DNA from: a bacterium
Lineage (GTDB): Bacteria > Verrucomicrobiota > Verrucomicrobiia > Limisphaerales > UBA11358
Assembly (NCBI GenBank): GCA_021817945.1
Contig: JAKAFL010000002.1
Location: 148,929-212,928, forward strand
Length of the DNA stretch: 64,000 nucleotides
Direction of reading: 5' to 3'
Shown here: piece after piece, positions 4,616 through 51,279 of the stretch
Numbering within the stretch: position 1 is the first letter of the stretch
Layout of the letters: each line of letters starts with the position of its first letter
Notes under the pieces: model-generated
The model's input: the letters and a program-made list of their open reading frames with translations, nothing else
What the model was told of the DNA's origin: nothing
Database searches by the model: none
Translations under genes and position numbers: made by a program

Positions 4616-4993
4616 TTAGAAGGGAAGAAATGCTGCGTGTAGATTGGAACTGACTAGCGCAATGGAACAAGTGGGAGCAACATTCAGCGGATTAATGTTG
4701 TAAGAACCACCCATTGGCTCCGCTGGCATATCCGAACCTGCACGCCCCAAGTAAGGCACCAAGTCGCTGGATGCAGGAGTCGCAGTGGCGATTTGACCGT
4801 ACTCCAAACCCCACTGTTGTTTGCCCTGGTCAATGACCCTCAGGTTGTTGATGCAGGCGTTTGTCTGGGATGTTTGCCGGGCACGCACAAAATTGGGTAT
4901 TCCGATTGCAGCCAACAAACCAATGATGGCTACCACAATCATGATCTCCACAAGCGTGAACCCACTCCGCCTTTTTATTTTGAATGTTTTCAT
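4616..4993 (-). CDS. type II secretion-like pseudopilin (copy 1)
   Basis: About 125 residues from the MKT start chosen here (the frame extends 11 codons further upstream). It has a type III prepilin signal: basic leader, cleavage site 'RRSG|FTLVEIM', then a hydrophobic helix 'IVVAIIGLLAAIGIPN'. After the helix comes the 'RARQTSQTNACINNLR' block and a short globular tail with 'VPYLGRAGS' and 'MPAEPMGGSYNIN'. Family knowledge: prepilin peptidase cleaves and methylates such proteins, which assemble into a pseudopilus. No other secretion genes are next to it; such orphan pilins are abundant in Verrucomicrobiota. It is highly similar to the gene just upstream. Confidence 0.9.
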   Translation of the reverse strand: MKTFKIKRRSGFTLVEIMIVVAIIGLLAAIGIPNFVRARQTSQTNACINNLRVIDQGKQQWGLEYGQIATATPASSDLVPYLGRAGSDMPAEPMGGSYNINPLNVAPTCSIALVSSNLHAAFLPF

Positions 4994-5145
4994 GACTTTT
5001 ATGTTTCTACAGCGGCGGAACTTCACCAGCGGCGGATGTATGAATAAGTTCTGTTTTGTTCCGAGATAGCCGTTGGCAACCGCAACCTACCTAAGAGCAA
5101 CCAGCATGCCACAAAATTCATTGGGCGAAAGGGTATCAAATGAAA

Positions 5146-5167
5146 AAGCCCGGATTTCTCCGGGCTT
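5146..5167 (-). terminator. intrinsic terminator after the second pseudopilin gene
   Basis: Stem 'aagcccgg' (5146-5153) with 'ccgggctt' (5160-5167) and a 6-base loop. On the minus strand it is followed directly by a run of T residues (positions 5147-5143 read as T). It sits about 40 bp past the stop at 5204, so the two pseudopilin genes appear to be separate transcription units. Confidence 0.85.
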
Positions 5168-5203
5168 GGAATTACTATGTTTGATCTGCTACTTTGACAG
5201 GAA

Positions 5204-5593
5204 TTATTGAGTCAAGAAGGCTGGATGAGAAGGATTGTTGGTTGATCCTGGAGCACCTGCGATGTTACAATTGGGGACAACGGACAAGGCATTAATTACG
5301 TAGCTACCTCCCAACGGTTCTGCGGGCATGTAGGACCCAGCCCGTCCGAGGTACGGAACAATATTGGAGCTATCGGGCGTGACAGATGTTTGCTGGCCGT
5401 TTTCCAAGGCCCACTGCTGCTTGGCGGCGTCAATGATGCGCAGGTTGTTGATGCAGGCATTGGTTTGGGACGTCTGGCGGGCGCGCACAAAGTTGGGAAT
5501 CGCAATGGCAGCCAGCAATCCGATGATGGCCACAACAATCATGATTTCCACCAGCGTGAAGCCGGCCTTCCGATTTGTTTTCAGTGTTTTCAT
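5204..5593 (-). CDS. type II secretion-like pseudopilin (copy 2)
   Basis: About 129 residues from the MKT start, which matches copy 1 (a start 4 codons upstream at 5605 is also possible). The leader ends 'RKAG|FTLVEIM', followed by 'IVVAIIGLLAAIAIPN' and the same 'RARQTSQTNACINNLR' block. Only the extreme C-terminus differs clearly from copy 1, ending 'NNPSHPAFLTQ' here and 'NLHAAFLPF' there. The pair is an adjacent tandem paralogue set in the same orientation. The predicted role is structural, as a pilus or pseudopilus subunit processed at the inner membrane. No clear Shine-Dalgarno sequence is visible for either start. Confidence 0.9.
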   Translation of the reverse strand: MKTLKTNRKAGFTLVEIMIVVAIIGLLAAIAIPNFVRARQTSQTNACINNLRIIDAAKQQWALENGQQTSVTPDSSNIVPYLGRAGSYMPAEPLGGSYVINALSVVPNCNIAGAPGSTNNPSHPAFLTQ

Positions 5594-6420: not shown

Positions 6421-7284
6421 GGGCGCGTCTCAACTTTTGGGCTGGTGAAATTTGGGTGGAAGGAGAGCGAAGGGGCGGTTTTGGGTTTGTGTTTGACCAT
6501 GTGGAGCATAGGCATGCCCAACGGGGGGTGGATATTCCCCGCAATTTTGCATGGATTGGATGCCTTGTATATGCCTTCCCAACGGGGCTCGGAATGATTT
6601 TTGGAGATTGGATTTCTACAAATATGTCGCCTCTCTGGGGCTGGGGGCAAATTGCCCGTTTCCGAAAGACCAGGACCACCCCTCCCGGCCCTCCCCATCA
6701 ATGGGATTGATGGAGAGGGAGAAAGAGGCGGTGGGTTCAATAGGGTTTTAAACCATTTCGAAGGTCAAAGGTAATCGCAATTTCAAGCGCACTCAACAAC
6801 CCTGCGCCTCTGGTTTCCTCGCCCCGCCAGCGGAGCGCGGGGAGAGGATTAAGGAGGGGAGATCGCAAACAGCCAGCGCGATCAACGAACCATCTCGCAT
6901 CCCGAAAACTCAGTCCCACCCCTCCCCGACCCTCCCCATCAATCAGGATTGATGGAGAGGGAGAAAGCGGCGGTGGGTTCAATAGGGTTTTAAACCATTT
7001 CGAAGGTCGAAGGTAATCGCCATTTCAAGCGCACACATCAGCCCTGCACCTCGGGTTTCCTCGCCCCGCCAGCGGAGCGCGGGGAGAGGATTATGGAGAG
7101 GGGAACTCGCAAACAGACATCGCGATCAATAAAGCATCTCACATCCCGAAAGCTCAGTGCCACCCCTCCCCAACCCTCCCCATCAACCAGGATTGATGGA
7201 GGGGGAGAAAAAACACAGGATTTGCGGAGGTTTTTGAAATTGGAAACACCGGGGGAGACTTGCTCAATAACCGAGATGCGCCCC
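6421..7284. repeat. MITE-like palindromic repeat element, copy A
   Basis: The left end begins GGGCGCGTCTCAA and the right end finishes in GAGATGCGCCC, an imperfect terminal inverted repeat. The inside holds about two and a half copies of a ~242-bp unit: the 'ccgaaa' landmark recurs at 6662, 6902 and 7146. Each unit contains two hairpin modules: 'ccctccccatcaat' facing 'attgatggagaggg', and 'cctcgccccgc' facing 'gcgcggggagagg'. The first ~240 bp match copy B at 10202 closely. It carries only spurious proline-rich open frames and no transposase. Confidence 0.8.
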
Positions 7285-10201: not shown

Positions 10202-10778
10202 GGCGCATCTCAATTTTTAGGTTGGTGAAATTTGGGTGGAAGGAGAGCGAAGGGGCGGTTTTGGGTTTGTGTTTGACCAGGTGGAGCATAGGCATGCCCA
10301 ACGAGGGGTGGATATTCCCTGCAATTTTGCTTGGGTTGGATTCCTTATATTTGCCGCCCCCCACGGGGCTGGGGGGCAAATTGCCCGTTTCCGAAAGATC
10401 AGTGCCACCCCTCCCCGGCCCTCCCCATCAATGGGATTGATGGAGAGGGAGAAAGAGGTGGTGGATTCAATAGGGTTTTAAACCATTTCGAAGGTCGAAG
10501 GTAATCGCCATTTCAAGCGCACTCAACAACCCTGCGCCTCTGGTTTCCTCGCCCCGCCAGCGGAGCGCGGGGAGAGGTTTAAGGAGAGGGGGGATCGCAA
10601 ACAGCCAGCGCGATAAATGAGCCATCTCATTTTCCGAAAGCTCGGCGCCACCCCTCCCCGGTCCCCGCCACCCATGGAGATTGATGAGAAGGGAGAGCGG
10701 AGCAGTTGGTTGGTGGAGGTTTATAAAAATTCAAACGCGGAGGCTGAGGGTGACTCTCTCAAAAACTGAGACGCGCCC
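10202..10778. repeat. MITE-like palindromic repeat element, copy B
   Basis: The left end GGCGCATCTCAATTTTT is matched by an inverted right end AAAAACTGAGACGCGCC. The first ~240 bp and the following ~240-bp unit match copy A at 6421 nearly base for base, including both hairpin modules and the 'ccgaaa' landmark at 10391 and 10633 (period 242). Copy B has about one and a half internal units against two and a half in copy A, which explains its shorter length. Confidence 0.8.
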
Positions 10779-42320: not shown

Positions 42321-42764
42321 TCAAGACTGTGGAAAAATGCGGTACAGGAGGAAATATACCAGGACCCCCGTGATGGAGACATACATCCAGAGCGGCCATG
42401 TCCACCGCGCCAGCTTCCGGTGCGTTTCGAATCGTCCCTTTGCCGCCATCCAAAGCGTGGACAGAATGAGCGGGACAATCACCATGGCCAAAACGGTATG
42501 GGTGGAAAGAATGAAAATATAAATCGGACGAAACCAATGCGGATGCAGGAAACGGGTGGGTCCGCGGTGATAGGTCCAATAAAGGGAAAAATGATAGAAC
42601 AGATAGCAAGCCAGAAAAACAACGGACGTGCCGAAGGCGGAAACCATGCAAGCGCGATGGGCGGATTTATTTCCCTGCTTGATGAAAACAAACCCCGCCG
42701 CCAATAAAACCGCGCTGGCCGCGTTCAGAGAGGCGTTGATGGCGGGCATTATAAAAATATTCAT
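42321..42764 (-). CDS. DUF420 membrane protein of the oxidase operon
   Basis: 147 residues with about four to five membrane helices and conserved histidines ('NKSAHRACM', 'CYLFYHF', 'STHTVLAMVI', 'ETHRKLARWTWPLWMYV'). It matches DUF420, a family often found beside cytochrome oxidase genes; a role in oxidase assembly has been shown for the related CtaM of Firmicutes. It is the last gene of the oxidase operon, 27 bp after sco, and is convergent with the FolP-like gene. Confidence 0.85.
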   Translation of the reverse strand: MNIFIMPAINASLNAASAVLLAAGFVFIKQGNKSAHRACMVSAFGTSVVFLACYLFYHFSLYWTYHRGPTRFLHPHWFRPIYIFILSTHTVLAMVIVPLILSTLWMAAKGRFETHRKLARWTWPLWMYVSITGVLVYFLLYRIFPQS

Positions 42765-42791
42765 GTGTCCAACGTTTCACGATCAGCGCCA

Positions 42792-43448
42792 TCAAGGATC
42801 CGCCTCAAGCCTTTTGAGTGTTTGCAGAATGCGATCCTGAACCTGGCTCCAAATAATGCCATCACCCGAGGTCTCGAAAACCGCCCGGAGACGCGCCTTT
42901 TTATCCACCACCACAAAAATGGTGCTGTGAATGAAGAGATCCACCGGAGACTTTCGGTCTGACGGCTGCACCGGGGTGGATCCCAGACGAAGTGCTCCAC
43001 CAGCGAGCGCGCCAATGGATTGGGGAGTCCCTGTCAAAAACATCCAACGGTTTGAATCGGCCCCGTAATGCTCCGCGTAGCGGTGTAAAACCGGCGGGGT
43101 GTCAAAATCCGGATCGGTGGTCAGAGTCACCAAGCGAGCCGCGCTGGAAGGAGGCAAGGCATCCTGGATCTGGCGCATTTGGCGGGTCATTCCCGGGCAC
43201 GATCCGGCACAACGAGTAAAAATGATATCTGCCACCCAAGGGTGGTTGGTCAAGTTGGCGAGAGTGACGGCCTGGTTGTACTGGTTGGTAAGGTCGAATG
43301 AAGGGATGACGCCGAGCACTGGAAGGGAGGTTTGATGGGCGCGTGAAAACTCGGCCAGTGAGAGGAGATAAGCAAAAGCAAGAAGAACGAGCACCAAAAG
43401 GACCCCTATCCACAGACTCCTTGGCAGTGGCTGTACGGGATCAGACAT
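42792..43448 (-). CDS. sco: SCO1/SenC copper chaperone
   Basis: 218 residues. An N-terminal membrane anchor ('LWIGVLLVLVLLAFAYLLSL') is followed by a thioredoxin-like domain with the copper-binding 'FTRCAGSCPGMTRQM' (Cys-x3-Cys) and the distal His in 'VDLFIHSTIFVV'. Family knowledge: Sco proteins deliver or reduce copper for the CuA centre of oxidase subunit II. Here the gene directly follows coxB (24 bp), consistent with that role. Confidence 0.93.
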   Translation of the reverse strand: MSDPVQPLPRSLWIGVLLVLVLLAFAYLLSLAEFSRAHQTSLPVLGVIPSFDLTNQYNQAVTLANLTNHPWVADIIFTRCAGSCPGMTRQMRQIQDALPPSSAARLVTLTTDPDFDTPPVLHRYAEHYGADSNRWMFLTGTPQSIGALAGGALRLGSTPVQPSDRKSPVDLFIHSTIFVVVDKKARLRAVFETSGDGIIWSQVQDRILQTLKRLEADP

Positions 43449-43472
43449 GTTTCAACCGGGCGGCCCCGAAGG

Positions 43473-44240
43473 CTATTCGTAACTGGCGGTGGCACCGCTT
43501 TTGGATTTGATCCACTTGTCAAAATCGGCCTGAGATTCCACGGTCACGTAACCACCGGTCATGGCGGCATGGCCTGGACCGCAGAGTTGGGCGCAATTGA
43601 TCTGGTACCTGCCGATCTGGGTTGGTTTGAACCAGACAGGGATGCGCAAACCGGGGATGGCATCCTGGCACACCCGCATGGCGATAATTTTCAGGGAGTG
43701 AATCACGTCCTTGGAACTCAAATAAATGATGACGGGCTTGTTGACCACCACGTGTATATCGTTGAGGGTTTGGATGTCGTCCTTGCCATTGACATCCGAA
43801 GGATCCACACCAAAAACGTTGTCCGAGGCCACAAACTTCATGTCTTGCCGGCCAAAGATGCCGTCCGGGCCCGCATACCGCGCATTCCAAGCGTATTGCT
43901 GGGCAACCACTTGAACCACGGTGGATTCGCTGGCCATGGGGAAATGATCCACAGCCTTGGACCAAAGAGGGACGGCCACAAAAACCAGCAAGAGAGCCTC
44001 GACCAAGGCCACGGCCAGTTCGATGTAGCTGGACGCATGGTTTTGAACCCCCGTGTAATCTGCACGTTGATTGCGTGAAGCCCTGAAGCGATACAGTGCG
44101 TATATAAAATAGGCCATCCAGCCGATGAACAAGGCCAGCATGAGCCAGTGGACGTAGATGATGAGATTATCCACGTCCTGACCATTTTCTGAGGCGAGCG
44201 GGGGCAGCCCGAGCACGTATTTACCGAACCATTCTTTCAT
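43473..44240 (-). CDS. coxB: cytochrome c oxidase subunit II
   Basis: 255 residues. Two membrane helices in the first ~110 residues, then the cupredoxin domain. CuA ligands are visible: His in 'SSKDVIHSLKIIAM', and the 'CAQLCGPGHAAM' cluster (Cys, Cys, His, Met). The aromatic patch 'YAWNARYAGPDG' precedes. There is no fused cytochrome c domain at the C-terminus, so this is the aa3-like rather than the caa3 form. It takes electrons from a soluble donor at the outer face of the inner membrane. Upstream overlap with the 89-residue gene is ATGA. Confidence 0.95.
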   Translation of the reverse strand: MKEWFGKYVLGLPPLASENGQDVDNLIIYVHWLMLALFIGWMAYFIYALYRFRASRNQRADYTGVQNHASSYIELAVALVEALLLVFVAVPLWSKAVDHFPMASESTVVQVVAQQYAWNARYAGPDGIFGRQDMKFVASDNVFGVDPSDVNGKDDIQTLNDIHVVVNKPVIIYLSSKDVIHSLKIIAMRVCQDAIPGLRIPVWFKPTQIGRYQINCAQLCGPGHAAMTGGYVTVESQADFDKWIKSKSGATASYE

Positions 44241-44506
44241 ATTTGAGCTTCTGACAAATCAGGGGAATTTGTTTCGTTGGCCGCACGGGAAGTTTCCCGG
44301 CGAATGATGTAAATGAAAAAGCCACCAATGCTGACCAACACCGTCACGATGCAAGCCATTAAAGTAAGGATACCCCAGTTCATGCCGCTGGCGAGCGGGG
44401 AATCGGAACGTCCATAGCAGGCGGCACAAGCCATGGCGGGAGAAGCCTGGCAAAAGGCCAGAAGAATTGAAAGAAAAAGGAAGTATCCCGCGCGATTAAA
44501 AATCAT
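44237..44506 (-). CDS. small membrane protein with CAACYG motif, oxidase operon
   Basis: 89 residues. An N-terminal hydrophobic stretch ('GYFLFLSILLAFCQASPA') that looks like a signal peptide is followed by 'MACAACYGRSDSPLASGMN', a short Cys-rich block, then a second membrane helix ('LTLMACIVTVLVSIGGFFIYI') and a charged tail. The block resembles sequences seen next to oxidase genes in other Verrucomicrobiota; this is from memory of the general pattern, not a search. A role in copper delivery or assembly is possible because of the two Cys residues. It overlaps both neighbours by 4 bp. Confidence 0.8.
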   Translation of the reverse strand: MIFNRAGYFLFLSILLAFCQASPAMACAACYGRSDSPLASGMNWGILTLMACIVTVLVSIGGFFIYIIRRETSRAANETNSPDLSEAQI

Positions 44507-44688
44507 AAGTAGCTGATTTTTTTTAATTTTTTAAGGAAATAAAAACCGTAAAAAACCACCAGTCCCGCCACCCCCAGGCTGGCCAGCCCCAGCCAAGGGA
44601 GCTGGTTTACAAAACCCCAAATGCCAAACCCCAGAGCAAGGGCCGTCATCATGGAGACAAATATGAGATGGAAAGCCTTGAGAGACAT
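44503..44688 (-). CDS. two-helix small membrane protein, oxidase operon
   Basis: 61 residues with two membrane helices ('AFHLIFVSMMTALALGFGIW' and 'LGLASLGVAGLVVFYGFYFL') and a basic C-terminus 'KKLKKISYL'. Start and stop overlap or abut the neighbouring genes (4-bp overlap with the next, 1-bp gap to the subunit-IV gene), which supports translation. No enzyme motif is present. It could be a small oxidase subunit or assembly factor. Confidence 0.78.
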   Translation of the reverse strand: MSLKAFHLIFVSMMTALALGFGIWGFVNQLPWLGLASLGVAGLVVFYGFYFLKKLKKISYL

Positions 44689-44689
44689 G

Positions 44690-45010
44690 TTAGTGCATCA
44701 TGGTGCCCATGGGAAAATCCTGCATGGCATAGAGAGTAAGCCCCATGAGGCCCACAAAGAAAAAGACCGTGAAAACCAACAGGGTGTAAATCAGCTTTTT
44801 TTCCGAAAGCAGGTGCATTAAAAAACCTGCCACGAGGAATGCATTGATGGATGCCACGCAGAGGATGAGCGCCACCTTGAAAGCCCATGAATAGTGGGGT
44901 GGCAGGTAGGAAATGTAAATCATCAAGCCTATCGCGCAAAGCACGCCCACAAAAATAAAGATGCACCGCTGCAAATAAGACTTGAAATCCACTGGATGGG
45001 AATCGCTCAT
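44690..45010 (-). CDS. cytochrome c oxidase subunit IV-like protein
   Basis: 106 residues with three membrane helices ('CIFIFVGVLCAIGLMIYISY', 'KVALILCVASINAFLVAGFL', 'LIYTLLVFTVFFFVGLMGLT'). The middle helix with 'SINAFLVAGFLMHL' is the pattern of bacterial subunit IV (CyoD/CtaF-like) proteins. It lies 22 bp downstream of subunit III, the usual position. It stabilises the oxidase core and is not catalytic. Confidence 0.85.
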   Translation of the reverse strand: MSDSHPVDFKSYLQRCIFIFVGVLCAIGLMIYISYLPPHYSWAFKVALILCVASINAFLVAGFLMHLLSEKKLIYTLLVFTVFFFVGLMGLTLYAMQDFPMGTMMH

Positions 45011-45032
45011 AATTGATGGTTTAATGGTCCAA

Positions 45033-45806
45033 TCAGGTTAAATATAGTACTGGAAACAGAAAAATCCAAACCAAGTCCACAAAATGCCAGAAAAGGCCTG
45101 AAACCTCAATACGATTGGTGAATCGTTCGGGGTCCTTTTTCCACATTCGACTACCTGGCCCCCAAAGATAACCAATCACCAGCGTGCCGCCCAAAATGTG
45201 CAGGGCATGCAACCCGGTGAGCGTGAAATACAAGGCCAGGAAGGTATTATGCCACGGACCGTAGTTTTCCATGGAGAGAATGTCAGACCGTGAAATTTTA
45301 ATTTCATCACGCGGAATGGGACCCTGGGATCGCAAATCGTAAAGAGCCTTTTCATCCGTTACATAGCGTCCTTCAATGGTGACGGAAGTGTCATCACTGG
45401 CGATCATGTGCCCATCGGCAAACCGGCCATCCTTGAGTTTGATCTCATAATGGATCCATTTGTCATGGTATTCATACATTTTGACGCCTAGGAAGGTGAG
45501 CGCGAGGACTATTGTGCAGGCGTGAAAAAACTTGAACCGCCCGAACTGCCCCACTTTACAGGCCACCCAAGCAAGAAGGGTGGTGATGGCAGAGAGTGCC
45601 AACAGGACGGTATTCAAAGTGCCAAGGCGCACGTCCAGCCAGCCGTGCGGCCAGTATCCCTCATCCGCTCCCACTCGCAGCAGAACGTATGCGGAAAAAA
45701 GCCCGCCAAACAACATGACTTCAGATGCCAAGAACAACCAGATGCCGACCTTGGCGTTGTAAATGCCGGTATCCGGACGAGGTTTGACCGTGTATGGGAT
45801 TTCCAT
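45033..45806 (-). CDS. coxC: cytochrome c oxidase subunit III with an internal loop insertion
   Basis: 257 residues. Family motifs are 'KVGIWLFLASEVMLFGGLFS' at the start and 'LTGLHALHILGGTLVIG' and 'EVSGLFWHFVDLVWIFLFPV' at the end. Between helices three and four is an extra hydrophilic loop of about 70 residues ('YHDKWIHYEIKLKDG' through 'ISRSDILSMENYGPWHNT'). Similar loops are known from oxidases of several non-proteobacterial phyla. The subunit helps oxygen access and assembly. It follows subunit I after 8 bp. Confidence 0.94.
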   Translation of the reverse strand: MEIPYTVKPRPDTGIYNAKVGIWLFLASEVMLFGGLFSAYVLLRVGADEGYWPHGWLDVRLGTLNTVLLALSAITTLLAWVACKVGQFGRFKFFHACTIVLALTFLGVKMYEYHDKWIHYEIKLKDGRFADGHMIASDDTSVTIEGRYVTDEKALYDLRSQGPIPRDEIKISRSDILSMENYGPWHNTFLALYFTLTGLHALHILGGTLVIGYLWGPGSRMWKKDPERFTNRIEVSGLFWHFVDLVWIFLFPVLYLT

Positions 45807-45814
45807 GAAAAAAT

Positions 45815-47719
45815 TTAGTGAGCTGTGGCAAGGGACACTTTGGAACCCACCGGGCGCTCCGGTTCGTTTTGGGGGGTGAAATCGGTGTCGTGACCCGGAA
45901 CGCTGTATTCATAGGGCCCACGATAGACGTGGGGAACATGCTCGAAATTGCCGTGAGGAGGGGGTGTTGGAGCCTGCCATTCCAGAGTGGTGGCCTGCCA
46001 GGGATTATCTCCCACCTTTTCTCCATGCTTGATGCTCCAGAACAAATTAATGATGAAAGGGATTTGAGCGATACCCAGGGCAATGGCCGCCCACAGTATC
46101 CAAACATGGAGGGACATCATGTTGTCACTCAAACCACCCACCACATCGGCTCCGGCGCGACTATTCATCGCGGCTGAATAATTGGCTCCTCCATCCGACA
46201 TGCGGCGAAGCATTCCCGCCATGCCTTGGGCAAACATGGGCATGAAAACAATATTCATGAAAATCAGGGAACAGACAAAATGGACACGGCCCCAGAACTC
46301 GTTCATTTTACGGCCCGTTATTTTTGGAAACCAATAATAAAGTCCTGCGAAAAGACCGAAAATGGTGCCTGGAGCCACCACGTAGTGGAAATGGGCAATA
46401 ACGTAGTAAGTGTCATGAAGGTGAACGTCGCTGAGGTTGAATCCAAGCGGGAGACCGGTCAACCCGCCGATGCCGAACATGGGAAGGAAGGCGAGGGCAA
46501 ACAGCATGGGTGTATTAAACCGGATGGAACCGCCCCACAAAGAAATAAAGAGGCAGGTTAAAATGATGACTGATGGAATGGATATAATCATCGTGGTGGC
46601 CTGGAAGAAAGTGGAGATTTTGGTTCCCATGCCGGTCATGTACATGTGGTGGGCCCAGACGATGAAGGAGAGAAAACCGATGGTGAGAACGGAATAGACC
46701 AGGGATTTGTAACCCCAGATTGGCTTGCGGGTGTTGTTGGCGATGATTTCGCAAACAGCACCCATAGCTGGGAGGATGAGGACATACACCTCGGGATGGC
46801 CCAGGAACCAAAAAAGGTGCTGCCAGAGGAGAGGGCTTCCGCCGCCGCTGATATGGGCCAGATTTCCGCCCACGGCGAGGCCCGTGGGCAGGAAAAAGCT
46901 TGTATGGGCCACGTTATCCATCAATTGCATGAGTGAAGCGGCCTCGAGGGGCGGAAACGCCAGAAGAAGAAGGAACGCCGTGACAAACTGAGCCCAAACG
47001 AAGAAAGGAAGTCGCATCCAAGTCATTCCGGGTGCGCGGAGTTGGATAATGGTGGCAATAAAATTCACAGCCCCGAGAAGGGAAGAGGTGATCAGGAGCA
47101 CCATGCCGATAATCCAAAAAAGCTGGCCATGGGTGGGAATGGATGTGGCAAGAGGAGAGTAGGAAGTCCAACCCGCCTGTGCCGCGCCACCAGGAATAAA
47201 AAAGCTGACAAACATCACGAGGCTGCCGAGGAAATAGGCTTGATAGCTGGCCATGTTCACACGTGGAAAAGCCATATCGGGCGCGCCAATCATGAGAGGG
47301 ACCACGTAATTGCCAAAGGCGGCAAAAGCCAGTGGCACAATTCCAAGGAAAATCATCATGGTTCCGTGCATGGCTCCAAAAGAGTTGTAAAGGTCGGGTG
47401 AAATCACCCCGCCAGCCGCTGGCTGCCCCAGGATGCTGGCCAGCACGGGTCCGAAAATGGGAACAGGTTTTCCCGGATGGGCTATCTGCCACCGCATCAG
47501 AAGCATCAGCATCAAAGCCAGCCACATGAACGCCAAAGACGTGATGCCATACTGGAGGCCGATGATTTTGTGATCGCTGGAAAAAATATACTTTTGCCAG
47601 AAATTGGGTTCGTGGTGGGCGTTTTCCTGGTGGTGGGCGTCCTCCGAGTGACCGTGCTCCTGCTCGTGGCTGACAGTTGAATGCCGGGAAGGAGGAAATT
47701 GCTGGATTTCAGAGTTCAT
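45815..47719 (-). CDS. coxA: cytochrome c oxidase subunit I
   Basis: 634 residues, about twelve membrane helices, with a charged His-rich N-terminal extension of ~45 residues. Catalytic motifs: 'WQHLFWFLGHPEVYVLILP' (CuB His and the His-Tyr pair), 'WAHHMYMTGMG' (CuB His-His) and 'DTYYVIAHFHYVVAPG' (heme a and a3 ligands). It reduces oxygen to water and pumps protons in the inner membrane. The C-terminal tail is extended and cytoplasmic or periplasmic in character. The gene is 4 bp downstream of ctaB. Confidence 0.97.
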   Translation of the reverse strand: MNSEIQQFPPSRHSTVSHEQEHGHSEDAHHQENAHHEPNFWQKYIFSSDHKIIGLQYGITSLAFMWLALMLMLLMRWQIAHPGKPVPIFGPVLASILGQPAAGGVISPDLYNSFGAMHGTMMIFLGIVPLAFAAFGNYVVPLMIGAPDMAFPRVNMASYQAYFLGSLVMFVSFFIPGGAAQAGWTSYSPLATSIPTHGQLFWIIGMVLLITSSLLGAVNFIATIIQLRAPGMTWMRLPFFVWAQFVTAFLLLLAFPPLEAASLMQLMDNVAHTSFFLPTGLAVGGNLAHISGGGSPLLWQHLFWFLGHPEVYVLILPAMGAVCEIIANNTRKPIWGYKSLVYSVLTIGFLSFIVWAHHMYMTGMGTKISTFFQATTMIISIPSVIILTCLFISLWGGSIRFNTPMLFALAFLPMFGIGGLTGLPLGFNLSDVHLHDTYYVIAHFHYVVAPGTIFGLFAGLYYWFPKITGRKMNEFWGRVHFVCSLIFMNIVFMPMFAQGMAGMLRRMSDGGANYSAAMNSRAGADVVGGLSDNMMSLHVWILWAAIALGIAQIPFIINLFWSIKHGEKVGDNPWQATTLEWQAPTPPPHGNFEHVPHVYRGPYEYSVPGHDTDFTPQNEPERPVGSKVSLATAH

Positions 47720-47723
47720 AAAT

Positions 47724-48632
47724 TCATTTCGTTTTATCCAACACCAATGCCGTAAGTAATAAAGGCAAATAAAGGATGGAGGCCAGAAAAAACTGTCTGG
47801 CGCTGGAGCGTGTCAACCGCCTGGAAAACCTGACGGCCAACATGAGGAAAGCCAAACCCAGGGCCAGAGCGACCACCAGATAACCCCTGCCACTGATTTG
47901 CCAGAGGTATGGAAAAAGGCTGACCAGCAAGAGGGCAAGCGTATTGCTGATGGATTGCTGGGCCGTGCGGGAGCCATCAGGGTCCACGTGCGGCAGCATG
48001 ACAAAGCCCGCCTTGGCATATTCATCCCTGTAAAGCCAGGCGATGGCAAAAAAGTGAGGCAACTGCCAGAAGGCCAGAATGGCAAAGAGCGCCCATCCTT
48101 CCCCACTTAACTGATTCCGCGCGGCAGTCCATCCCATGAGCGGAGGCAAGGCCCCCGGGATGGCACCCACGAGGGTGTTAATCCACGTCACTCTCTTCAG
48201 AGGTGTGTAAACAAACAAGTAGCTCACCAAGGTCACGGCCCCCAAAACCGAAGTCAGGAGATTGACCGCAAAAGCCAGGTAAACCAGGCCGCAGACGGAT
48301 GCAACCCCTCCAAAAAGCATGGCCGAAACGGGCTGCATGCGACCGGAAGGCAGCGGTCTATCCTGGGTGCGGGGCATTTTGGCATCATAATCCATTTCAA
48401 TCCACTGGTTTAGGGCGGAGGCTCCTGCTGCCACCAAGGCGGTTGCCAGCAGGGTGTGGAACAGGAGCAGATAATTCATGGGGCCGCGCCATCCCAGGTA
48501 AAAACCAACCAGTGTCGTAAGAAGGACCAAGGTGGTCAAACGAGCCTTGACCAAGTCGGCGAACACTGCCAGCCAGCTTTTTGTGGCTTTGTCAGCATTC
48601 AATAATACTACGCTTGCTGGTTCTAATTGCAT
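47724..48632 (-). CDS. ctaB: heme O synthase (protoheme IX farnesyltransferase)
   Basis: 302 residues, about nine membrane helices. The two Asp-rich prenyltransferase motifs are 'NQWIEMDYDAKMPRTQDRP' and 'FAIAWLYRDEYAKAGFVML', both intact. It attaches a farnesyl group to protoheme, the first step to heme A. It is between ctaA and coxA, consistent with supply of heme A to this oxidase. Confidence 0.96.
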   Translation of the reverse strand: MQLEPASVVLLNADKATKSWLAVFADLVKARLTTLVLLTTLVGFYLGWRGPMNYLLLFHTLLATALVAAGASALNQWIEMDYDAKMPRTQDRPLPSGRMQPVSAMLFGGVASVCGLVYLAFAVNLLTSVLGAVTLVSYLFVYTPLKRVTWINTLVGAIPGALPPLMGWTAARNQLSGEGWALFAILAFWQLPHFFAIAWLYRDEYAKAGFVMLPHVDPDGSRTAQQSISNTLALLLVSLFPYLWQISGRGYLVVALALGLAFLMLAVRFSRRLTRSSARQFFLASILYLPLLLTALVLDKTK

Positions 48633-48652
48633 GGGTTAGCGGCGATTTTTCT

Positions 48653-49717
48653 TTATTCGGCCCCAATCACGGACGGGCTGGGATTGATCAATGTCCCAGA
48701 CTCACATTCAACGGCCTCTTCCCGGCGAACCGATGCCACCATGAACCAAACCGCGCCAACCGCCAAGACAAGCGCTCCCACCAAAACATGCGCAGTGGCC
48801 ACATCCGCCGCCTTATTTGAAAGCACGGTCATGATTCCCAAACCCGCCTGCACTAATATCAAACCTAACCACACAAAAGCAAGCCGAGTCAAATAATCCC
48901 CCTTGCCAAGGCGTTTTAGCGAAAGCATGGCGGCGGCGGCCACCCCGAGCACGATCAACAAGGCCATGATGCGATGGATCATTTGAAGGATCACTTGGAA
49001 GGCCGTGATGGGGTTGAGCTGATCGGGGTCCACCCGGTCAGCATTGTAACGGGCGATGGCTGCGGGACTGGTGTCCGGCCAGAGTTGACCGTGGGCAAGA
49101 GGAAAATCTGAGATGGAAAGGCCTGCGTGTTGATGCCGCATGGTGGCACCCAGGATGAGCTGAAGAAAAATGAGTCCGGCGACATAAGCCACATGCCTGC
49201 GTAAACCTCCTGCGACGAGTTTACCCTGCTTCTCAGGATGCTGTGATAATCTGAACCAAAACGGACTTGTAAAAAGGGCCAAGGCACAGGTCAAAACAAA
49301 AAAGGATTGAGCAACAATCCCATGAAAAATGCCCAAGTCATCCATCCTCAAGGTCACTCTCAAGCCACCCAAAACTCCCTGTATCACCACGCCCAAAAAT
49401 GCCGCCACACCTAACTTTTTCACCCAGGCCCGCTCGTCCGAACGCCACAACCAGACCATTAGAACGGTGGTCATGAACCCCACCAAGGTTGCCCATAGGC
49501 GGTGGGTATGCTCATAGAAAATACCCCCGATCCACTTGGAAGGTGGAAACAAGAACATGTTGTAACCGTAGCTATTGGGCCAGTCTGGCACAGACATTCC
49601 CGCCTCGTGGCTGGTCACCAGCCCTCCCGCGCCGAGCAGGAGAAAGGTGAAGAGCGCCGTGAGCGCCGCGAAGCGGAACAACCAAAGATTGGGTGTAGTG
49701 AATGGCTTCGGTATCAT
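48653..49717 (-). CDS. ctaA: heme A synthase (COX15/CtaA family)
   Basis: 354 residues from the ATG at 49717 (an ATG 6 codons upstream is an alternative). About eight membrane helices. Histidine motifs: 'VTSHEAGMSVPDWPNS', 'FYEHTHRLWATLVGFM', 'GIFHGIVAQSFFVLTC' and 'QMIHRIMALLIVLGVA'. It oxidises the C-8 methyl of heme O to the formyl of heme A. Its product is used by subunit I encoded downstream. The gene follows the cupredoxin-like gene by 52 bp. Confidence 0.93.
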   Translation of the reverse strand: MIPKPFTTPNLWLFRFAALTALFTFLLLGAGGLVTSHEAGMSVPDWPNSYGYNMFLFPPSKWIGGIFYEHTHRLWATLVGFMTTVLMVWLWRSDERAWVKKLGVAAFLGVVIQGVLGGLRVTLRMDDLGIFHGIVAQSFFVLTCALALFTSPFWFRLSQHPEKQGKLVAGGLRRHVAYVAGLIFLQLILGATMRHQHAGLSISDFPLAHGQLWPDTSPAAIARYNADRVDPDQLNPITAFQVILQMIHRIMALLIVLGVAAAAMLSLKRLGKGDYLTRLAFVWLGLILVQAGLGIMTVLSNKAADVATAHVLVGALVLAVGAVWFMVASVRREEAVECESGTLINPSPSVIGAE

Positions 49718-49769
49718 TAAGAAAGGCCCAACCACCCCGGTTTCCCGGGAAGATTCAGCTCCAGGATTA

Positions 49770-50468
49770 TTATTTGATTGCGAAAGCCGGAAAATTCACT
49801 TTCACGTCGGAATCCGTTACCGTCACCTGCAAAGTCTGGGTGCCTAGCTTGCGATGGCTGGCGGTGATGGTATAGGTGCCAGGAGGCACATCTTTAATGG
49901 TAAAGTCGCCATTGGTATCGGTGACACAATAATAGGGGCTGTCCTCGATGGTGACCCAGGCAAACATCCAAGGATGCACATCACATTGAAATTTCATGAA
50001 ATCCTCAGGCTTGTCAAAGGTGTAGGTCAGATCAGGGCCTCCGGCCATCTGGGCATCATTATGCTCGGGATTGCCGTTTTTGGAAGTGGTGTGGACATTA
50101 TGAATGCAAGGATCCGAATTTTTCACCACAAGTTTCTGGCCGGTCTGGATGGCCATGATGCCCGGGAGATAGATGCAACCACGCTGGTCCAGCACGGCCG
50201 GGGGAGCGCTGGCTCCCGTGGATTTTCCGGTGACCTGCAATGCCACGACCACATCGCCAAGACCGCCGTTGGGGCCAACTTCATAGAAATGAGTAAATGG
50301 CTTGTCCTTGTGCAAGGCACCACATACCGGATCGTTTTCCAGGGGAATAATTTCCACATTCGGCGGAGGGGTTCCTTGAAACGTGATTTCACCCGTGATA
50401 TTTCCAGCCTTGGCGGCGATACCTAAAGCCAAACCGCCCATCAATGAAAGAACGAGAGCTTTTTTCAT
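49770..50468 (-). CDS. exported cupredoxin-like protein, first gene of the oxidase operon
   Basis: 232 residues from the ATG at 50468. Signal peptide 'MKKALVLSLMGGLALGIAAK'. A first domain contains 'GQKLVVKNSDPCIHNVH', and a type-1-copper-like loop 'MKFQCDVHPWMFAWV' gives Cys, His (+3) and Met (+6). The paired His is in 'CIHNVH', so a blue-copper-like site is plausible. A carboxypeptidase-regulatory-type beta-sandwich follows ('GDFTIKDVPPGTYTITASHR'). It may be an electron carrier or a copper donor for the oxidase. The experimental function is unknown. Confidence 0.75.
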   Translation of the reverse strand: MKKALVLSLMGGLALGIAAKAGNITGEITFQGTPPPNVEIIPLENDPVCGALHKDKPFTHFYEVGPNGGLGDVVVALQVTGKSTGASAPPAVLDQRGCIYLPGIMAIQTGQKLVVKNSDPCIHNVHTTSKNGNPEHNDAQMAGGPDLTYTFDKPEDFMKFQCDVHPWMFAWVTIEDSPYYCVTDTNGDFTIKDVPPGTYTITASHRKLGTQTLQVTVTDSDVKVNFPAFAIK

Positions 50469-50513
50469 ATAGACCATCACCAATAGCACCAAGAGAAAGG
50501 ATGGACAAGCAAA

Positions 50514-50531
50514 TTGTGAAAAATTTCACAA
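50514..50531. promoter_or_regulatory. CRP/FNR-family binding site upstream of the oxidase operon
   Basis: A perfect palindrome TTGTGAAAAATTTCACAA. It matches the CRP consensus TGTGA-N6-TCACA exactly and sits about 46 bp upstream of the first gene of the oxidase operon. A weak promoter (TTGTCC, 17 bp, TATTGG at 50480-50485) may follow it. The regulator itself is not in the window. Confidence 0.65.
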
Positions 50532-50682: not shown

Positions 50683-51165
50683 TCAACGCAAATTCTGCAT
50701 AGTCCGGGCCATGGCCAAGGCGGTTTGCGCTGCTTCGCGTCCGCGGTTATGGTCGGCGTCCATACACCTTTGGCGGGCTTGCTGATGGTTTTCCAGGAGA
50801 AGCACCTCATGAACGACCGGGACTTGGTGCATGATTTGAATTTGAACCAGAGCATTGGTCACAGCCTCGCCGATATGTTGTGCGTGAGTGGTGGCGCCCC
50901 TGAGGATGACGCCTAGACAAATGAGGGCATCCAGCCGGTCCTCAGGGTCAGAATCGTGTGCGCGGCGGGCCAGACAACTGGCCACCACTGGAATTTCAAA
51001 GGCCCCCGGCACTCGCACAACCCAAGCGGATCCCCCTGCCTTTTGGATTTCAACCCTGGCAGCCCGGAGCATGGCATTCACGTAACGGGCGTTGTAAAGC
51101 GATGCAATGATCGCAAAGCGCCCGCCACGATTGGAGCGGTTGGTTCTGGCAACTTTCTTAAGCAT
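50683..51165 (-). CDS. ribH: 6,7-dimethyl-8-ribityllumazine synthase
   Basis: 160 residues from the ATG at 51165. Motifs: 'FAIIASLYNARYVNAML' (substrate-binding aromatic-Asn), 'VRVPGAFEIPVVASCLA', 'CLGVILRGATTHAQHIGEAV' with the active-site region, and 'NRGREAAQTALAMA'. It condenses the pyrimidine with 3,4-dihydroxy-2-butanone 4-phosphate in riboflavin synthesis and normally forms an icosahedral or pentameric shell. It lies 114 bp downstream of ribBA, so it is likely in the same transcript. Confidence 0.94.
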   Translation of the reverse strand: MLKKVARTNRSNRGGRFAIIASLYNARYVNAMLRAARVEIQKAGGSAWVVRVPGAFEIPVVASCLARRAHDSDPEDRLDALICLGVILRGATTHAQHIGEAVTNALVQIQIMHQVPVVHEVLLLENHQQARQRCMDADHNRGREAAQTALAMARTMQNLR

Positions 51166-51279
51166 AAGGATGAAGCACGCTGATGATGGTGCAAATCCCT
51201 GGAATTGCCAAGGGGTTGGCACTGCAAAAGACGCCCGGCCACGGTTGAAGCCCGGTTCAACCGAGAGCCGGGAAATGCT

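Follow-up and report, generated by a model that had tools for sequence, protein, structure and literature searches.

A candidate Rex operator before the cytochrome oxidase and heme A operon of a Limisphaerales bacterium

The core of CRP sites, TGTGA-N6-TCACA, is common to CRP and Rex sites, and the FNR box reads TTGAT-N4-ATCAA. For the redox-sensing repressor Rex, the published consensus is TTGTGAANNNNTTCACAA (Ravcheev 2012, as quoted in the available parts of PMC6391272 and PMC5317091). In Streptomyces avermitilis, the nuo, atp, cyd and hem operons are under direct repression by Rex, whose binding NADH weakens, the oxidase being cytochrome bd (cydA1B1CD) and the heme genes hemAC1DB (PMC5355995, available part). 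In the corresponding part of PMC6391272, the Rex regulon of Caldicellulosiruptor bescii comprises a class V aminotransferase, rex itself, hydrogenases and fermentation genes, none of those described being aerobic respiratory; in Thermotogales, a serine-pyruvate aminotransferase is a Rex target. A literature search found no account of a Rex regulon for Verrucomicrobiota, the taxon list of the 2012 Rex survey lying outside that search. The locus described here, from a member of that phylum, shares its operator consensus with both regulons. As in S. avermitilis, the associated genes include nuo, atp, an oxidase and heme genes, but here the oxidase is cta/cox and the heme genes are those of heme A synthesis; as in C. 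bescii, a class V aminotransferase and rex itself are among the putative targets.

The window analysed is a 64-kb stretch of a Limisphaerales assembly (3.76 Mb in 99 contigs, 94.7% complete). Read from it, the palindrome TTGTGAAAAATTTCACAA was confirmed at 50514-50531. Its arms, TTGTGAAA and TTTCACAA, are perfect, the asymmetry being confined to the two central bases, and it fits the Rex consensus TTGTGAA-N4-TTCACAA at 14 of 14 fixed positions. A 214-nt gap separates ribH from the first ATG of the operon, whose A is position 50468 on the minus strand; the palindrome lies in this gap, 45 nt from the ATG. The earlier note had called it the only such site in the window, standing before an oxidase operon of about 8 kb, and a scan of the 64 kb agrees: it is the sole match to TTGTGA-N6-TCACAA at zero or one mismatch. 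Allowing up to two mismatches yields 2 matches where 2.8 are expected, which leaves the perfect match as the only informative one.

50514..50531, minus strand: putative Rex operator, reading TTGTGAAATTTTTCACAA on the operon strand, based on the consensus match and a conserved place in 23 of 30 loci
50683..51222, minus strand: ribH (PF00885), the upstream neighbour on the same strand, ending 151 nt before the operator
49770..50468, minus strand: first gene of the operon, with a signal-peptide-like start, a CarboxypepD_reg domain and a CDVHPWM motif
48653..49735, minus strand: ctaA, heme A synthase (PF02628, 8e-42; the NCBIfam heme A synthase model only far below cut-off)
47724..48632, minus strand: ctaB, heme O synthase (TIGR01473 above cut-off)
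45815..47719, minus strand: coxA/ctaD, oxidase subunit I (PF00115, 6e-127; TIGR02891, 1.7e-171, below the equivalog cut-off)
45033..45806, minus strand: coxC, subunit III (PF00510)
44690..45010, minus strand: probable subunit IV (TIGR02229, 5e-4, below cut-off)
44237..44688, minus strand: two small ORFs of no family, 44503-44688 and 44237-44506
43473..44240, minus strand: coxB, subunit II (PF00116; TIGR02866, 1e-35, below cut-off)
42792..43448, minus strand: SCO1/SenC copper chaperone (PF02630)
42321..42764, minus strand: DUF420 protein, last ORF of the run (PF04238)

The operon thus spans 11 ORFs on the minus strand (42321-50468, 8148 nt), in which CtaA, CtaB, CoxA, CoxB, CoxC, SCO1 and DUF420 were recognised; the complete oxidase and heme A pathway that the earlier note had seen is indeed there. 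The palindrome does stand directly before the first gene; that gene, however, encodes a small, exported-type protein and not an oxidase subunit. Its product belongs to no NCBIfam family and has matches at E≤0.001 in 38 of the 40 genomes of the genus. The protein, whose CDVHPWM motif we take to be copper-protein-like, is widespread in the genus and could perhaps serve as an electron carrier or as a copper donor to the oxidase. The upstream ribH gene is not thought to be part of the regulon. No terminator-like site was found in the gap between ribH and the operon, so read-through is possible.

Searching the whole genome with the relaxed pattern TTGTGA-N6-TCACAA at up to two mismatches returned 137 matches, and the control 57, a result that is largely noise; we therefore used the 14-base Rex pattern with at most one mismatch. 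The base composition of the window predicts 0.00013 perfect TTGTGAA-N4-TTCACAA sites in 64 kb and 0.008 per genome, and 0.35 sites with up to one mismatch in a genome of this size. Two perfect sites and four with at most one mismatch were found, against none for the reversed-pattern control. By Pfam and NCBIfam identities, the four precede cta/cox, nuoB, atpB and a class V aminotransferase gene, three of them thus standing before respiratory-chain or ATP synthase genes. The earlier note had tied the case for regulation to an enrichment upstream of genes, and all four lie 8-63 nt before a start codon, that of atpB being taken as the first of its ORF. Since nuo, atp and aminotransferase genes are Rex targets elsewhere, this target set fits Rex closely.

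The same picture extends to the genus: 186 sites were counted in 40 genomes, the reversed-pattern control giving 20, and the count is 222 in the 49 genomes covered by the family search. A site with at most one mismatch was present within 300 nt upstream in 23 of the 30 cta loci returned, and none appeared in any of 200 rounds of dinucleotide shuffling. The first proteins at these loci are 54-65% identical to that of the window, save the window's own and that of its nearest relative, G016 (97%). The seven cta loci without a site belong to G036, G006, G023, G007, G022, G025 and G038, five of which carry rex; two siteless loci (L074, L078) keep a remnant with three mismatches. Leaving out G016, the information content of 22 sites is 1.66 bits per position, a value inflated since the sites were chosen by pattern; the flanks hold 0.27 upstream and 0.56 towards the gene. 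A chance palindrome, for which its intergenic setting and AT-rich centre might speak, is barely conceivable in view of the 0.008 perfect sites expected per genome and the same promoter position kept across the 23 loci.

A strict tblastn rule assigned 46 of 78 site rows in the genus and 17 of 39 in the class to a downstream gene from one of five families (aminotransferase, atpB, nuoB, the first cta gene and rex), leaving 32 and 22 rows, respectively, with no reference gene. Related targets occur among these unassigned rows: members of the atpB cluster (L058, L131, L142) and, by eye, a CydA-like protein (L171) and multiheme proteins resembling those of alternative complex III (ACIII; L152, L189, L205). 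Others are matches with a single mismatch that fall within genes and are probably noise. In two genomes (L047, L048) the aminotransferase operator also faces, by eye, a divergent isocitrate-dehydrogenase-like gene.

Which regulator reads these sites? The bases adjoining the shared core should decide, and by sequence the inner bases here are those of Rex; the palindrome does not fit the FNR box. The earlier note had taken the site to be of CRP/FNR type; on that reading, such a regulator would couple the oxidase to carbon or oxygen status. The TGTGA-N6-TCACA core is indeed also that of CRP sites, and strong matches to the CRP-type helix-turn-helix domain (HTH_Crp_2, PF13545) occur in 22 of the 40 genomes of the genus. 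In the window's own assembly (94.7% complete), however, no HTH_Crp_2 match lies above cut-off, only five fragments falling below it, and G016 likewise has none above cut-off. The cNMP-domain (PF00027) proteins above cut-off in the own assembly are a histidine kinase, two short single-domain proteins and a ferredoxin-type protein, and a CRP-type HTH is absent from them. Moreover, the number of sites in the genus is unrelated to CRP, with 4.77 per genome where a strong match is present (n=22) and 4.50 where it is not (n=18). The core-adjoining A7 and T12 are also kept among the sites, a figure inflated by pattern-based selection. With site number following Rex across the class as well (below), we rejected a CRP/FNR-family regulator, which is very improbable. 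The search for a regulator gene that the earlier note had proposed thus turned up neither a CRP/FNR protein whose HTH passes the cut-off nor rex in this assembly.

We compared site number with the presence of Rex and CRP in 94 genomes of the class, each at least 90% complete, scoring Rex by its N-terminal domain above cut-off and CRP by a CRP-type HTH at E≤1e-9. Genomes with Rex (n=23) had 3.96 sites on average and those without (n=71) 0.45 (Mann-Whitney p 4e-13, kinship ignored). Outside the genus the figures were 3.75 in 20 genomes with Rex and 0.40 in 70 without. At least three sites were found in 17 of the 23 genomes with Rex and in 2 of the 71 without, namely the window's own genome and G078. 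When both proteins were considered, genomes with Rex alone had 4.5 sites (12 genomes), with both 3.36 (11), with CRP alone 0.6 (25) and with neither 0.37 (46); the overall effect of CRP was not significant (p 0.24). The sites follow Rex, not CRP. There are exceptions, G009 having four sites and G078 three with no Rex match in either. Within the genus, sites averaged 3.0 in genomes without rex (n=7) and 4.79 in those with it (n=42; p 0.009), a modest effect partly confounded by completeness, and it is the class that provides the clear test. In six genomes (L046 in G002, contig C21, and also G008, G022, G027, G032 and G037) a second Rex lies beside a divergent, diverged Rex-like gene; in G002 this pair is near a Rex site and a gene resembling the electron-input subunit of a hydrogenase or NADH oxidoreductase.

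The rex gene itself was not found in the window's own assembly (94.7% complete). G016 encodes a full-length Rex (L095:158-823) with a winged-helix N-terminus and a nucleotide-binding C-terminus (PF06971 and PF02629; NF003995 and NF003992 above the NCBIfam cut-off). Eight sequence homologues of this protein are in the PDB, with E-values down to 3.5e-41, seven named Rex and one an AT-rich DNA-binding protein. Its gene sits at one end of a contig of 3.7 kb that also bears, by eye, transposase-like and glutamine-synthetase-like genes. Searching the own genome with this contig returned only dispersed repeats and a transposase-like stretch, neither rex nor glnA. Both the start of the contig and the part that follows rex correspond to dispersed repeats; repeat pieces of this contig recur at dozens of places in the own genome, some of them in the window, and may break the assembly. 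Dispersed repeats of about 70-260 nt lie in the window at 4794-5593, 6422-7208 and 10202-10696. Since the nearest relative has rex on a small contig with no counterpart here, an assembly gap is likely; a gap at repeats is the simplest account, and we infer that the organism has a rex gene. Alternatively, the lineage may recently have lost rex and kept sites that have not yet decayed, as the lack of rex in the assembly would suggest. Such a relic is unlikely: all four sites are intact, two relatives without rex (G023, G036) have one site each and none at cta, and the missing contig is small and contains dispersed repeats, with a glnA gene that is also without a match in the own genome.

We then examined how the operators are placed relative to promoters. 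Two elements are predicted before the oxidase operon.

50503..50508, minus strand: predicted -35, TTGTCC, 5 nt downstream of the operator, consensus-based
50480..50485, minus strand: predicted -10, TATTGG, after a 17-nt spacer; weak, with TA present and the final T of the relatives' TANNNT absent

A sigma-70 scan of the operon strand gave no promoter and did not pick up the predicted -10; the pattern, TTGNNN-17-TANNNT in the relatives, is visible only by comparing them. CTTG occurs at nearly the same spacing as the predicted -35 in 25 of 26 cta loci. Taking the operators of cta, nuoB, rex and ACIII-like genes together (46 in all), CTTG follows closely in 45, with its TTG 4-8 nt past the site, and 43 combine it with TANNNT at 16-18 nt; shuffles gave this layout 0.14 times on average and 3 times at most. 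At rex loci (L051, L139, L021 and the reverse strands of L027 and L030) the operator lies 4 nt before the rex -35, and the likely GTG start of rex follows the -10 TAATTT by about 6-8 nt, so that its mRNA is probably leaderless. At atpB, a C before the operator makes its TTGTGA a -35-like CTTG in 16 of 17 promoters. At the aminotransferase gene, CTTG starts 18 nt before the operator in 16 of 17, and a -10 at 17 nt would fall inside the operator. The atpB and aminotransferase operators thus appear to overlap the -35 or the -10.

In the window, the transcript would start near 50473, placing the operator centre near -50. The operator abuts the predicted -35 from upstream, whereas in the available part of PMC5355995 the nuoA1 and atpI operators of S. 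avermitilis lie over or downstream of the -35. Because the operator here is not over the -35, repression by steric hindrance does not follow automatically. The Rex footprint at promoters of Streptomyces covers 27-29 nt (PMC5355995, available part), enough for the -35 to be reached, which makes occlusion plausible. The main alternative to repression is that Rex binds but activates from this activator-like place, with the oxidase going up when NADH is low and oxygen plentiful. The -35 TTG does follow the operator by 5-6 nt in the 25 cta loci, and the atpB and aminotransferase operators, by contrast, overlap promoter elements. However, an identical layout stands before rex itself, which is usually autorepressed. 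Rex also represses rex-hemAC1DB in S. avermitilis (PMC5355995, available part), the gap before nuoB varies from 5 to 8 nt, unlike strict face-of-helix contact, and the footprint known from Streptomyces is long enough for the -35. Activation at the oxidase operon therefore seems doubtful. In a broader proposal, which we regard as similarly doubtful, one NADH sensor in Verrucomicrobiia would govern nearly the whole oxidative phosphorylation chain (complex I, the ACIII-like complex, cytochrome oxidase with the heme A pathway, and ATP synthase); with the operator locked 4-8 nt before the -35 at cta, nuoB and rex, Rex could activate there and repress where it overlaps the promoter.

Our preferred reading, to which we assign a probability of roughly 0.88, is that the palindrome is an operator for the repressor Rex within an oxidative-phosphorylation Rex regulon. 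Rex dimers would bind it at low NADH/NAD+, and a build-up of NADH, through too little oxygen or too much reductant, would take Rex off the DNA. The cta/cox operon would then be transcribed, together with the genes that share the operator: nuoB (complex I), atpB (ATP synthase) and the aminotransferase gene. If Rex acts as it does on nuo, atp, cyd and hem in S. avermitilis, high NADH should switch the respiratory chain on; binding, NADH response and sign of regulation are here inferred from other bacteria. As for what controls respiration, the earlier note had offered carbon or redox status, of which the analysis supports redox and not carbon.

This would be a known kind of control, Rex over respiratory genes, in a little-studied group, and it may be new for Verrucomicrobiota. 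The regulator is corrected from CRP/FNR to Rex, and the signal would hence be NADH/NAD+ and not carbon. The promoter pattern TTGNNN-17-TANNNT is usable for this largely uncultured group of Verrucomicrobiota, for which the sites offer a testable Rex regulon that includes the oxidase and heme A operon. The cytochrome oxidase genes would thereby be tied to the same switch as the other respiratory genes of the lineage.
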